Shown here: positions 21,906 to 57,209 of the stretch, in pieces
Layout: each line of letters starts with the position of its first letter
Position numbering within the stretch: position 1 is the first letter of the stretch
Assembly: GCF_036607905.1 (NCBI RefSeq)
Contig: NZ_CP144555.1
Coordinates: 3,410,001-3,474,000, forward strand
Source: Streptomyces sp. SCSIO 75703
Lineage (GTDB): Bacteria; Actinomycetota; Actinomycetes; Streptomycetales; Streptomycetaceae
Direction: 5' to 3'
DNA length: 64,000 nt
Position numbers and translations under genes: made by a program
The notes under the pieces: model-generated
What the model was told of the DNA's origin: nothing
The model's database searches: none
What the model saw: the letters and a program-made list of their open reading frames with translations, nothing else

Positions 21906-23012
21906 TCAGTCGCGGGGCAGCGGGCGGATGTCGGGCGTCACCTGCCGGCCCGGGGTGGCCCGGACAATGGTGATCAGGCGGTCCGTCAGCTCCAGTCCGC
22001 CGACGGCCGGATCGTCGTAGCCGAGCACCCGGTGTCCGCGCAGGACGCTCACCACGAGGTCGTCCAGCTCGCGGGGGTTCCGGCCCACCTCGGCCTTTAT
22101 GACGGGGCGTTCCACGAGGTCGAGCCCGGTGCCCTGGTGGATGAGATCCTCTATCACCATGCCCGCGGCGGGGCTGAGCACGGAGAGCCCGAGCAGCCGG
22201 CCGGCGGCGCTGGCGCTGGTGATCACCGCGTCGGCGCCGGACTGCTTCAGCAGCGGCGCGTTCTCCTCCTCGCGGACCGCGACCACGATCTTCGCGCCGC
22301 GGTTGATCTGCCGGGCGGTCAGCGTCACCAGCACGGCCGTGTCGTCGCGCTGGGTGGCGATGATGATCTGCCGGGCCCGCTGGACCTCGGCGCGCTTCAG
22401 CACATCGCTGCGGGTGGCGTCGCCGACCACCCCGGCGAAGCCGTCGGCCGCGGCGGCGTCGATCACCTTGCTGCTCGGGTCCACCACGACGACCTGCTCC
22501 TTGCGGAGCCCCGCCGCGCAGACGGTCTGGAGCGCCGAGCGTCCCTTCGTACCGAAGCCGACGACGACGGTGTGGTCGCGCAACGCGGACCTCCAGCGGT
22601 TCAGGCGCCATTCCTCCCGGGTGCGTTCGGTGAGGACTTCCAGCGTGGTGCCGACGAGGATGATCAGGAAGAGCACCCGCAGCGGCGTGATGACGAGGAT
22701 GTTGGTCAGCCGGGCGGCGTCCCCGACCGGGGTGATGTCGCCGTATCCGGTGGTGGAGAGCGTGACGGTGGCGTAGTAGCAGGCGTCGAGGAAGTCCACG
22801 GAGTCGCCCGCGCCGTCGTGGTAGCCGCCCCGGTCGGCGTAGACGATCACCGAGGTGACCATCAGGACGAGCACCGCCATCGAGAGCCGCTTGGCGACCT
22901 GGCGGAACGGCCGTTCCACCGCCTTCCTCGGGAGTTTCACCCGGTGGGTCACGAGGTGTTCGTCCGCCTGGCGGGCGATCGCGTCCTGGCCCGGAAGTTT
23001 CACGTGAAACAC
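21906..23012 (-). CDS. potassium channel family protein with RCK (TrkA-N) domain
   Basis: A 368-residue two-helix channel. TM1 (about 44-60) and TM2 (about 105-125) flank a pore loop with filter T88-G-Y-G-D92. A Rossmann-type RCK domain (about 145-270, VVVGFGTKGRSALQTV) and a TrkA-C-like C-terminus (about 280-360) follow. It probably conducts K+ and is gated by a nucleotide or ion at the RCK ring. GTG 23012 overlaps the moeA 3' end by 13 bp; a second GTG at 23003 has better ribosome-site spacing. The start is built from a parS sequence, so the first residues, MFHVKL, are dictated by it. Confidence 0.88.
   Translation of the reverse strand: MFHVKLPGQDAIARQADEHLVTHRVKLPRKAVERPFRQVAKRLSMAVLVLMVTSVIVYADRGGYHDGAGDSVDFLDACYYATVTLSTTGYGDITPVGDAARLTNILVITPLRVLFLIILVGTTLEVLTERTREEWRLNRWRSALRDHTVVVGFGTKGRSALQTVCAAGLRKEQVVVVDPSSKVIDAAAADGFAGVVGDATRSDVLKRAEVQRARQIIIATQRDDTAVLVTLTARQINRGAKIVVAVREEENAPLLKQSGADAVITSASAAGRLLGLSVLSPAAGMVIEDLIHQGTGLDLVERPVIKAEVGRNPRELDDLVVSVLRGHRVLGYDDPAVGGLELTDRLITIVRATPGRQVTPDIRPLPRD
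22997..23010. other. parS centromere site (ParB-binding), 14-bp perfect palindrome
   Basis: GTTTCACGTGAAAC is the perfect 14-bp Streptomyces parS core. ParB nucleates here, and ParA-driven segregation organises origin regions at sporulation. The site lies entirely within coding DNA where moeA ends and the channel gene begins. Confidence 0.93.
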
Positions 23013-29925: not shown

Positions 29926-29957
29926 CAGGCTGTGGACAATCGGTTCTCCACAGCCTG
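29926..29957. promoter_or_regulatory. inverted DnaA-box pair forming an 11-bp inverted repeat upstream of bkdR
   Basis: The arms CAGGCTGTGGA (29926-29936) and TCCACAGCCTG (29947-29957) are perfectly complementary across 10 nt. They include TGTGGACAA (29931-29939, complement of the Streptomyces DnaA box TTGTCCACA) and TTCTCCACA (29944-29952). A second small dyad, TGGACG-5-CGTCCA (29961-29977), lies between it and bkdR. Either could be the BkdR operator, and DnaA binding is equally possible. A further ACCGA/TCGGT dyad is at 29883-29896. Confidence 0.6.
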
Positions 29958-32622: not shown

Positions 32623-32673
32623 GGCGGAATCCTCCCCCACGGGGTTTTCCACAGAAGCGGCGGACCCCCTTGT

Positions 32674-53151: not shown

Positions 53152-53931
53152 TCACTGGACAGGCCGTGCGTAGTGCAGGTCCACCGTGCCCGAGTAACCG
53201 GGCAGCTTCACGGTCCGCTGGTCCTCGACCTTCCAGCCGAGACCGTAGACGTTGACGTAGACCATGTAGTTCTGGATCGCCGGGGACTCGGCGAGGGCCC
53301 GCTTGAGCCGCTTCGGGTCGCCGACCGCCTGGATCGTGTACGGCGGCGAGTAGACGCGGCCCTGGAGGATCAGGGTGTTGCCCACGCAGCGGACGGCGCT
53401 GGTGGAGATCAGCCGCTGGTCCATGACCTTGATGCCCCGGGCGCCGCCCTGCCAGAGCGCGTTGACGACGGCCTGGAGGTCCTGCTGGTGGATGACGAGG
53501 TAGTCGGGCTGCGGATCGGGGTAGCCGGGGAGCCTGGCGGTGGCGCCGGGCGGGGCGTCGTCGAGCGTGACGGTGAGGGCCTCGCCCTCGACCGGCTGGG
53601 TGCCGGCCCGGTCCTCCAGCTCGGCCAGCTTGGCGTCCTCCTCCCTGGTGCTGCCGTCGTCGCGGCGGGCCAGGGTGTCGACGTCCCGGCGCAGGGCGGC
53701 GTTGGCCTCCTCCAGCTCGCCGTTCTTGCGGCTGCGGTCCTGGACGAGGTCGGACAGCCGCAGCAGTGAGGCGTCGGTGCGGATGTTCGTGCCCTTGGCG
53801 GTGTCGAAGCTGGTGAAGAAGATGAGCCCGGCGAGTGCGAAGACGGCCGCGGTGAGCACCCGCACGGGCCGGAAGCGGCGCCCGGGGCCCGGGCCGGCCC
53901 CCGTCCCCGGGGAGTCGGCAGAATTGCTCAA
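53152..53931 (-). CDS. DUF881 family membrane protein
   Basis: A 259-residue protein. One N-terminal helix (about 25-44, [18 protein letters not shown]), a coiled coil (about 55-100, [29 protein letters not shown]) and an external alpha/beta DUF881 domain (about 110-255, with [33 protein letters not shown]) match the actinobacterial DUF881/YlxX family found near crgA. The function is unknown; the fold resembles division-linked periplasmic domains. The start is TTG 53931 with AAGGG upstream; no ATG or GTG fits better. It is divergent from crgA. Confidence 0.88.
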
Positions 53932-54073
53932 CGTACCCTTATCTCCTTCGGCGCCGCGGAAGCACTACGCTAACGGACGCCCGGGGGAGCGCTCAGAGTC
54001 CCCTTGCCCACCCGCCCCCGAGCCCGACCCGTTCCCTGCGCGGTCACGCAGCGCATCGACAGGAGAGACCCTC

Positions 54074-54328
54074 GTGCCGAAGTCACGTATCCGCAAGAAG
54101 GCCGACTACACGCCGCCGCCCGCGAAGCAGACCGCGGCCATCAAACTGAACAGCCGCGGCTGGGTCGCACCGGTGATGCTGGCCATGTTCGTCCTCGGCC
54201 TGGCCTGGATCGTCCTCTTCTACGTGACCGACGGTTCGCTGCCCGTCGAGCAGCTCGGCAACTGGAACATCGTGGTGGGCTTCGGCTTCATCGCCGCCGG
54301 GTTCGGCGTCTCCACCCAGTGGAAGTAG
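54074..54328 (+). CDS. crgA: cell division protein CrgA
   Basis: An 84-residue two-helix membrane protein. A basic start ([18 protein letters not shown]) precedes helices at about 33-53 ([21 protein letters not shown]) and 64-80 ([17 protein letters not shown]). CrgA restrains FtsZ-ring assembly and coordinates growth with septation in aerial hyphae. GTG 54074 has AGGAGAG upstream. The stop codon lies in the first half of an exact 15-bp tandem duplication. Confidence 0.93.
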
Positions 54329-54350
54329 CTCTGCGGGAAGTAGCTCTGCG
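54321..54350 (+). repeat. exact 15-bp tandem duplication over the crgA stop
   Basis: GGAAGTAGCTCTGCG occurs twice back to back (54321-54335 and 54336-54350). The first copy contains the last bases of crgA and its TAG. The second copy repeats AAG-TAG in the same frame, giving a second in-frame stop 15 bp later. Confidence 0.95.
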
Positions 54351-54367
54351 CAGCGCTCTCCCCTGAG

Positions 54368-54376
54368 TTATCCACA
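54368..54376 (+). other. DnaA box (TTATCCACA)
   Basis: A perfect match to the classical DnaA box. It is the first of four boxes within 200 bp between crgA and the rhomboid gene. Confidence 0.8.
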
Positions 54377-54380
54377 GCGG

Positions 54381-54389
54381 TTTTCCACA
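54381..54389 (+). other. DnaA box variant (TTTTCCACA)
   Basis: One mismatch to TTATCCACA, same strand and 4 bp after the first box, so the two centres are 13 bp apart. Confidence 0.55.
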
Positions 54390-54409
54390 TGGGGAAAAGA
54401 AAGACGATC

Positions 54410-54418
54410 TGTGGATAA
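54410..54418 (-). other. DnaA box (TTATCCACA on minus strand)
   Basis: The plus strand reads TGTGGATAA. It is a perfect box in inverted orientation to the first two, with the A-rich stretch GGGGAAAAGAAAGA between them. Confidence 0.8.
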
Positions 54419-54558
54419 CTCACGGGAGGTTGACGCCGGTACGACGGACATACCGGTAACCGAAAACACCTTCGCCCCCTGCCTGACCTGCGGTAACGCT
54501 GGCCATCAGCAGGGGGCGCCGCGCTGTCCGCACCCTGTGCACAAGATCCGCAACACGC

Positions 54559-54567
54559 TGTGGACAA
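54559..54567 (-). other. DnaA box (TTGTCCACA on minus strand)
   Basis: The plus strand reads TGTGGACAA, the complement of the preferred Streptomyces box TTGTCCACA. It lies 10 bp downstream of the rhomboid gene's stop. Confidence 0.7.
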
Positions 54568-54576
54568 CCGATGCGC

Positions 54577-55500
54577 TCAACTGAGCTGGACGGTTCTCAC
54601 CAGGGTGAGGACGAGGACGGCCACGAGGACCAGTCCGCAGACTCCGTACTGCACCAGGGCCCGCCGCTCGCGCGGTGCGTGGAGCATGCCGTAGCCGATC
54701 ACCACACCGGCGGCGAGACCCCCGATGTGCGCCTGCCAGGCGATGTTCCCCACGGTGAAGGTGAAGATCAGGTTGATCGCCAGCAGGACCATGATCGGTC
54801 GCATGTCGGCGTTGAGCCGGCGCAGCAGCATCGCGGTCGCGCCGAAGAGCCCGAAGACCGCGCCGGAGGCCCCGAGCGAGGGCTGCACCGGCGAGGCGAG
54901 CAGATAGGTGAGCGCGCTGCCGGCCAGCCCCGAGACCAGGTAGAGCGTCAGGTACCGGGCGCGTCCGAGGGCCGCCTCCAGGGGACCGCCGAGCCACCAC
55001 AGGCTCAGCATGTTGAAGGCGATGTGCCAGATCTCCTGGTGCGCGAACATCGAGGTCACCAGGCGGTACCACTGGCCGCCCGCGACCCCCTCGGTCGCCG
55101 TGAAGGGCTCCGGGGGCCAGCGCCCGATGAGGACCAGATCGGCCACGAGGGACTCGTGGACCTGGATGGCGAGGAAGACCGCCACGTTGATCCCGACGAG
55201 GATCTTGGTGATCAGCCGGGGGTCGGCGGCGATCGTGCCACCGGCCAGGGTGCGCGGCCGGGAGGCCGCGAAGTGGGAGCCGGTGCCGGAGCCGGACCGG
55301 CCGCGGACGCACTCGGGGCAGTGGAAGCCGACGGCCGCGTCGACCATGCACTCCGGGCAGATCGGCCGCTCGCAGCGGGTGCAGCGGATGCCGGTCTCAC
55401 GGTCCGGGTGGCGATAGCAGCCGGGCAGGCTGTGGGCGGGCGTCGGTGCCTGGCCTCCGGGGCCCTCCGGCGTCCCTGGTGTGCCCGGTCCCTGGTCCAT
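54577..55500 (-). CDS. rhomboid intramembrane serine protease with N-terminal zinc finger
   Basis: A 307-residue protein. A B-box-like zinc-binding region (C28, H31, C40, C43, C48, C51, H60, C61, C64) precedes six or seven helices. The rhomboid catalytic dyad is S212 in GASGAVFG and H258 in AHIGGLAAG, with the oxyanion-side motif HIAFNMLSLWWLG. It cleaves single-pass membrane proteins inside the bilayer; the substrate is unknown. ATG 55500 is the natural start. The gene lies downstream of the cyclophilin on the same strand, about 140 bp away. Confidence 0.92.
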   Translation of the reverse strand: MDQGPGTPGTPEGPGGQAPTPAHSLPGCYRHPDRETGIRCTRCERPICPECMVDAAVGFHCPECVRGRSGSGTGSHFAASRPRTLAGGTIAADPRLITKILVGINVAVFLAIQVHESLVADLVLIGRWPPEPFTATEGVAGGQWYRLVTSMFAHQEIWHIAFNMLSLWWLGGPLEAALGRARYLTLYLVSGLAGSALTYLLASPVQPSLGASGAVFGLFGATAMLLRRLNADMRPIMVLLAINLIFTFTVGNIAWQAHIGGLAAGVVIGYGMLHAPRERRALVQYGVCGLVLVAVLVLTLVRTVQLS

Positions 55501-57193: not shown

Positions 57194-57209
57194 TGTTTCA
57201 CGTGGAACA
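57194..57209. other. parS centromere site (canonical 16-bp form)
   Basis: TGTTTCACGTGGAACA is the exact complement of the widely conserved parS TGTTCCACGTGAAACA. It lies in the intergenic space between convergent genes, the most common kind of place for parS. ParB would bind here. Confidence 0.93.

Follow-up and report, generated by a model that had tools for sequence, protein, structure and literature searches.

Why does a dense group of DnaA boxes lie between the division gene crgA and a rhomboid-family protease gene in Streptomyces sp. SCSIO 75703, and what might it do there? We analysed this locus within a 64,000-nucleotide stretch of the chromosome (contig NZ_CP144555.1, positions 3,410,001 to 3,474,000), hereafter the window. 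Coordinates are those of the window unless the genome is named.

Four DnaA boxes cluster between two convergent genes

crgA (54074..54328, + strand; 84 aa; Pfam PF06781 CrgA, E 1.8e-29) and the gene of a rhomboid-family membrane protease (54577..55500, - strand; Pfam PF01694, E 7.4e-38) form a convergent pair, the left gene ending at 54328 and the right one at 54577. The boxes lie 3' of both genes, and the cluster is therefore not a crgA promoter. The first-pass annotation had reported four DnaA boxes within 200 bp in this gap, and all four were recovered as exact matches: box1 (TTATCCACA, + strand, 54368-54376), box2 (TTTTCCACA, + strand, 54381-54389), box4 (TTATCCACA, - strand, 54410-54418) and box5, its fourth box (TTGTCCACA, - strand, 54559-54567). 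Two additional, weaker boxes were found on the - strand of the gap, namely box3 (TTTTCCCCA, which reads TGGGGAAAA on the + strand; 54390..54398) and TTGTGCACA (54536..54544), which lies inside a conserved TGCACAAGATCCG.

The pattern TTNTCCACA occurred seven times in the window, against 0.23 occurrences expected from shuffling, and 67 times in the genome (6.886 Mb, one contig), against 22 for the same pattern read backward. The density check proposed with the original observation was carried out by placing the 67 sites at random. Four sites within 200 bp were reached in 0/20,000 trials, and the largest random cluster, of three boxes, was seen in 6/20,000 placements; the four-box cluster is thus beyond chance. 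The suspected A/T-rich patch was also borne out, as the GC content was 45% at 54369-54408, compared with 74% for the window and 61% for the entire 248-bp gap. When a model of the element was searched against its own genome, a single copy was found, the next match (E 0.04) being the opposite strand of the same site.

Architecture of the element

The two perfect TTATCCACA boxes form a 14-bp perfect inverted repeat (TGAGTTATCCACAG/CTGTGGATAACTCA), which was recognized by eye and also appears as a stem in the RNA fold. Box4 lies within CGATCTGTGGATAAC, and its letters were invariant in 34 aligned elements; alignment A1 and model R1 were built on 34 of 95 full elements and A2 on 35 of the 95. The letters of box2 differ among species. 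An GGGGAAAA-like tract at box3 is common across the genus, and in 108 elements we counted 65 one-mismatch matches (third base free) on the minus strand at -19 to -22 from box4. The number of perfect boxes over the span counted was three in 61 of these 108 elements, four in 33, two in 12 and five in 2.

To the right of box4 is a motif that is not a DnaA box, GTTGACGCCGGT(G/A)(T/C)GAC (54429..54445, + strand). This is a consensus of near-invariant columns, of which the copy in the window reads GTTGACGCCGGTACGAC. The motif is an 11-bp direct repeat of GAC (GTTGACGCCGGTGTGAC) at a near-fixed distance from box4. A GC-rich inverted repeat, CGCCCCCTGC...GCAGGGGGCG, follows at 54473..54518. In the RNA fold its energy was -31.8 kcal/mol on the + strand and -36.9 kcal/mol on the - strand (z -3.6 and -3.8), and the consensus stem had just 5 pairs in 35 sequences, one of them changed on both sides. 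This repeat is possibly a bidirectional transcription stop.

Conservation within Streptomyces

The box1-box4 pattern was present in 116/121 genomes of the genus, and its backward control in none. CrgA was located in 120 of the 121 genomes, and for each of these we inspected the sequence 3' of crgA. Conservation in the crgA-rhomboid gap, the check suggested by the annotation, was evident: box4 (TGTGGATAA) was kept directly 3' of crgA in 117/120 CrgA-bearing genomes (108/110 plus 9/10). It was accompanied by a convergent rhomboid gene in 108/110 loci and by an upstream box on the + strand in 116/117, the exception being L148.

The other three genomes departed from this arrangement. In G010, the sole box retained is one TTGTCCACA, which is probably box5. 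In G002, no perfect box was found across the ~11 kb examined beyond crgA, although the pattern is present somewhere in that genome. In G021 (L407, G021:C19:15000-26700), a block of crgA, DUF881, GATase and sortases (the last three names taken from translations) is inverted, so that 5 kb now separates crgA from the element. There the element adjoins the rhomboid gene intact, with box1, box4, the direct repeat and box5 all kept, which argues against a role as a regulator of crgA.

A scan of the genome collection with the pattern gave at least 120 stretches. Among the 80 listed, 77 sit 3' of crgA in the same orientation; in L344 the pattern adjoins crgA on the opposite strand, in L305 (Streptomyces mesophilus) crgA is ~5 kb away, a separation similar to that in G021, and L364 is a Loigolactobacillus record without crgA. 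Further, ten genomes (L098, L099, L107, L112, L121, L124, L125, L130, L134 and L135) lack box5 over a range of 260 bp from box4. In these the rhomboid gene ends right after the direct repeat, leaving a gap too short for the hairpin, and box1-box4 and the direct repeat are retained. The ten are alike, and we make no assumption that they are monophyletic.

Conservation beyond the genus

A crgA/rhomboid gap with perfect boxes was found in all 21 genomes from 16 other genera of Streptomycetaceae. In a first sample from other families, the 900 bp that follow crgA contained a perfect box in 7/9 genomes and none in 2/9. A second sample consisted of 29 genomes, one per family, in which CrgA was located, from 30 searched. 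Over the 450 bp that follow crgA, 18 of the 29 had at least one perfect box and 11 had none, against 0.019 boxes per 450 bp of flanking DNA at these loci. At two loci in this count less sequence was available, 283 bp at L260, where a box was present, and 139 bp at L263, where none was.

The pattern from box4 to the direct repeat was found in 58/121 genomes of the family, in 6/17 genera, the own genus included. Outside the genus, the whole-element model R1 gave weak matches in 18/268 genomes of the class sample (best E 3e-6), and the box1-box4 pattern occurred in 9/268 genomes, counted irrespective of position relative to crgA. Boxes 3' of crgA across families, taken with weak whole-model matches outside the genus, suggest an old box association and a narrower full architecture: within the class Actinomycetes, the presence of one or more boxes next to crgA looks ancient, and the full element seems confined to part of the family.

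Box4 and box5 are helically phased

The distance between box4 and box5 was 146-150 bp in 68/108 elements, and most of the others that have box5 differ from this by whole helical turns. We therefore placed the length changes on a tree of crgA and rhomboid sequences with 96 of the 108 elements, that is, without the ten genomes lacking box5, L138 (box5 out of range) and L116 (box5 at 149, just beyond the called gap end). Indel events were assigned by parsimony on a single FastTree tree without support testing. Between box4 and box5 there were 21 indels of at least 5 bp, with sizes of 9-13, 20, 31, 31 and 33. Twenty of these 21 were within 2 bp of whole turns, compared with 50/87 in two neighbouring spacers (resampling P 2e-5, Fisher P 5e-4). 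This comparison with control spacers supersedes a null of uniform indel sizes, which is crude.

A bias towards whole turns is what one would see if proteins bound at box4 and box5 had to share one face of the helix. Since box1-box4 and the repeat persist in the ten genomes that lack box5, neither box5 nor a loop can be required everywhere. Phasing between box1 and box4 was less clear (mean cosine 0.46, 16 indels), and we make no claim for it because the 31-33 bp class largely reflects box2 as the perfect box and not an indel.

The cluster is close to oriC

The annotation had described the cluster as away from oriC, with no dnaA in the window. This is formally right but misleading, since oriC, though beyond the window, is only ~30 kb from the cluster: in genome coordinates the cluster lies at 3464.37 kb, the oriC boxes at ~3494.7-3495.2 kb and a dnaA match, immediately beside these boxes, at 3495.7-3497.5 kb. 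The cluster is therefore origin-proximal. Further, 20 of the 67 boxes of the genome are within 100 kb of oriC (1.9 expected; those of oriC itself and of the crgA cluster are counted), as are 6 of the 11 copies of TTATCCACA. The distance between crgA and dnaA was 18-44 kb in 24/25 single-contig genomes, the own genome included. In G012:C1 the two genes are 6.3 Mb apart in contig coordinates, owing to a large rearrangement or an assembly artefact.

At oriC we counted 16 box matches with at most a single mismatch, of which two overlap, and a TAGTAGTAG stretch adjoins one of the boxes. Genome positions 3494721-3494760 (L034) show AGTAGTAGTAGGGCCTGTGGATA, a DnaA-trio-like stretch next to a box. The features by which a replication origin is recognized, namely a DnaA-trio/DUE beside a box, many boxes and flanking dnaA/dnaN, were not seen at the crgA-rhomboid element.

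Two other clusters lie across oriC, on its opposite side. The second, +36.5 kb from oriC, consists of two perfect boxes in 44 bp (G000:C1:3531769-3531812, L035), ~180 bp upstream of a dnaB-like gene. The third, at +82 kb, has three TTATCCACA (G000:C1:3576937-3577284, L036) between serS- and pheA-like genes; all these gene names were taken from translations. The left half of model R1 matched the third cluster with E 0.26, the match including AAGATCTGTGGA as in box4. In the window itself, two inverted boxes 4 bp apart (TTGTCCACA on the - strand and TTCTCCACA on the + strand) were seen at 29931-29952, ~50 bp upstream of an ATG frame, and a lone TTTTCCACA at 32645. Near the cluster, GTTTCACGTGAAAC occurs as a perfect and a one-mismatch copy (22997-23010 and 57195-57208). 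This sequence is parS-like and would fit an origin-proximal parS array.

Relation to known DnaA-box clusters

Three DnaA-box clusters around oriC of S. coelicolor, H69, H24 and D78, were reportedly described by Smulczyk-Krawczyszyn and colleagues in 2006, and the strong phenotype is said to come from D78, not H69. The clusters at -30 kb, +36.5 kb and +82 kb presumably match H69, H24 and D78, judging by cosmid positions. Because these positions agree with the three clusters found here, the crgA/rhomboid cluster is probably the orthologue of H69, a locus already known in S. coelicolor. It shares with that kind an above-chance cluster of near-consensus boxes outside oriC, in a short segment around oriC. 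A D78-like tandem-box pattern was found in 38/121 genomes of the genus; the patterns compared are not equivalent, and the difference is no more than a hint of greater constancy in the crgA element. What we add is the depth of conservation, the architecture and the box4-box5 phasing of the crgA-gap element. The open-licence PMC papers searched gave no description of the direct repeat, of box5 and its phasing, of the architecture across the genus or of the link to crgA across the class.

The element also resembles datA of E. coli, with no homology claimed. Both are non-coding, near oriC and intergenic 3' of the flanking genes, and both are box clusters with constrained spacing. Excerpts of two papers place the datA core in an intergenic region downstream of genes (PMC5742627, PMC10380432) and indicate that the spacing between its IHF site and the essential boxes matters, a loop being postulated (PMC10380432, PMC5742627). 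The constraint thus differs: in datA it is between the IHF site and the boxes, whereas in the Streptomyces element it is between box4 and box5, with the GAC direct repeat GTTGACGCCGGTGTGAC as the middle motif. It is seen in the near-whole-turn indels described above (20/21), with ten genomes lacking box5. DnaA-box clusters near oriC of B. subtilis, a member of a different phylum, likewise repress initiation (Okumura 2012, via an excerpt of PMC4585315), and we liken them by description. DARS1 and DARS2 of E. coli, according to a passage of PMC5742627, are also DnaA-box clusters that set DnaA activity, with IHF and Fis as partners.

A putative datA-like reservoir of DnaA

The boxes, their conservation, their location and the phasing of box4 with box5 are established. 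On these grounds we favour, with a probability of about 0.6, the reading that the crgA-gap element is an origin-proximal, non-coding, datA-like reservoir of DnaA that limits re-initiation; what is predicted in it is that DnaA binds, that a loop forms and that initiation is affected. DnaA would assemble on box1-box4, and DnaA on box5, ~14 helical turns off, would be brought to the same face via a DNA loop. Soon after the fork duplicates the element, this complex would titrate DnaA away from oriC, perhaps also stimulating ATP hydrolysis, and this withdrawal would limit re-initiation. The convergent position would keep the element clear of the promoters of both neighbours.

Of the two functions that had been suggested for the cluster, datA-like titration is thus the best supported, by conservation, proximity to oriC, phasing and published precedent, whereas the suggested link of DnaA to crgA expression found no support, given that the element lies 3' of both genes and is intact after the inversion of crgA. 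As to precedent, passages of three papers state that DnaA-box clusters of S. coelicolor repress untimely initiation (PMC4585315, PMC10950094, PMC5742627). In S. coelicolor DnaA, domain I dimerises and the very long domain II is thought to join distant boxes, and no protein partner of this DnaA was known at the time of a 2017 review (excerpts of PMC5448010).

The direct repeat and candidate regulators

The direct repeat is conserved, and pure titration does not explain a motif that is not a box. We compared it with binding patterns of known regulators in 105 elements with GATCTGTGGATAA, without the last 10 loci; some scores were low because gaps end at the rhomboid stop. The S. coelicolor MtrA consensus is given as [GT]T[GA]ACC-N5-GT[GT]AC in an excerpt of PMC5650626. 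The repeat agreed with it at 10/11 positions in 61/105 elements, which are not 61 independent facts because the rows are related, and 0.14% of background 45-bp segments equalled that agreement. The copy in our genome agreed at 8/11 positions only. MtrA binds oriC, dnaA and dnaN in S. venezuelae and M. tuberculosis, according to a passage of PMC5487470. In the main-text passages of open-licence MtrA papers that were searched, neither crgA nor the rhomboid gene was named as an MtrA target. As a binder of the direct repeat, MtrA is a lead that the motif likeness makes suggestive only.

Other candidates were also compared. A 'BldD-like' pattern, one base longer than the BldD consensus, matched in 75/105 elements, and two BldD-like half-sites with a wider centre are a weak alternative for the direct repeat. 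For AdpA, parS and GlnR, the density of matches in the elements did not exceed that of the window. The LexA and CRP patterns were denser per kb than in the window, yet they occurred in just 5 and 6 of the 105 elements, and we rejected them.

A composite element, conserved throughout Streptomyces, may be imagined, in which DnaA and an OmpR-type regulator, with MtrA as the best candidate, bind side by side. DnaA would connect box1-4 with box5 along one side of a loop that spans the regulator site, and a two-component system tied to division or osmotic stress would set the amount of DnaA held near oriC. Such an element would derive from an ancestral cluster of boxes that much of the class Actinomycetes has retained next to crgA. 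We offer this elaboration tentatively and think it rather unlikely to be right as it stands.

Alternative explanations

The inverted repeats could have been selected as terminators or mRNA-stabilising hairpins for crgA and the rhomboid gene, with the likeness to DnaA boxes incidental. The fold of box1 with box4, a 14-bp stem of -27.6 and -30.8 kcal/mol (z -5 to -6), fits such a role, as do the strong hairpin at 54473-54518 and the convergent gap. But the pairs just outside the boxes are poorly kept, the second pair being broken in 41/106, and it is the box letters that are kept. In four genomes of other families (L241, L244-L246) the boxes found all have a single orientation, a scan of the gap gave no terminator-like site, and termination does not need helical phasing. 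A search of Rfam gave no family above its gathering score (one sub-threshold hit, mir-3938, E 0.87, 18.7 bits vs 94). We consider this explanation improbable. To the same low degree we credit the idea that DnaA, with or without another factor, acts at the element to control expression of crgA or the rhomboid gene and so couples replication to septation. CrgA is a septation factor (excerpt of PMC4255298), and boxes accompany its 3' side across the class, but a site 3' of both genes that stays whole where crgA is 5 kb off (G021) is poorly placed for this, and no sigma70-like promoter was found in 53900-54700, with a consensus that misses many Streptomyces promoters.

Somewhat less improbable, though still unlikely, is a site with another task, either reloading DnaA with ATP, as DARS does, or an architectural one in organising the oriC domain, instead of an inhibitory reservoir. 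Both tasks would be compatible with the inverted boxes, the additional conserved motif and the phased box5, and parS-like sites occur nearby (22997 and 57195); the published statements on Streptomyces clusters, in the excerpts cited above, favour repression of initiation over a DARS-like role. An A/T-rich patch beside DnaA boxes might finally suggest a second, cryptic origin of replication or the remnant of an oriC. We give this hardly any credence: the genuine oriC, with its 16 matches at no more than one mismatch and its TAGTAGTAG stretch, is 30 kb off, whereas the region at crgA is short and by eye has no TAGTAGTAG-like stretch.

Implications

The datA-like reservoir thus remains our preferred reading of the crgA-gap element. 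The limits on initiation in actinobacteria are poorly known, and a single-copy, constant 200-bp element with a defined architecture and a conserved motif would give a direct handle on the control of initiation. Further, its lasting association with crgA raises the question of why a likely replication-control site stays beside a division gene.
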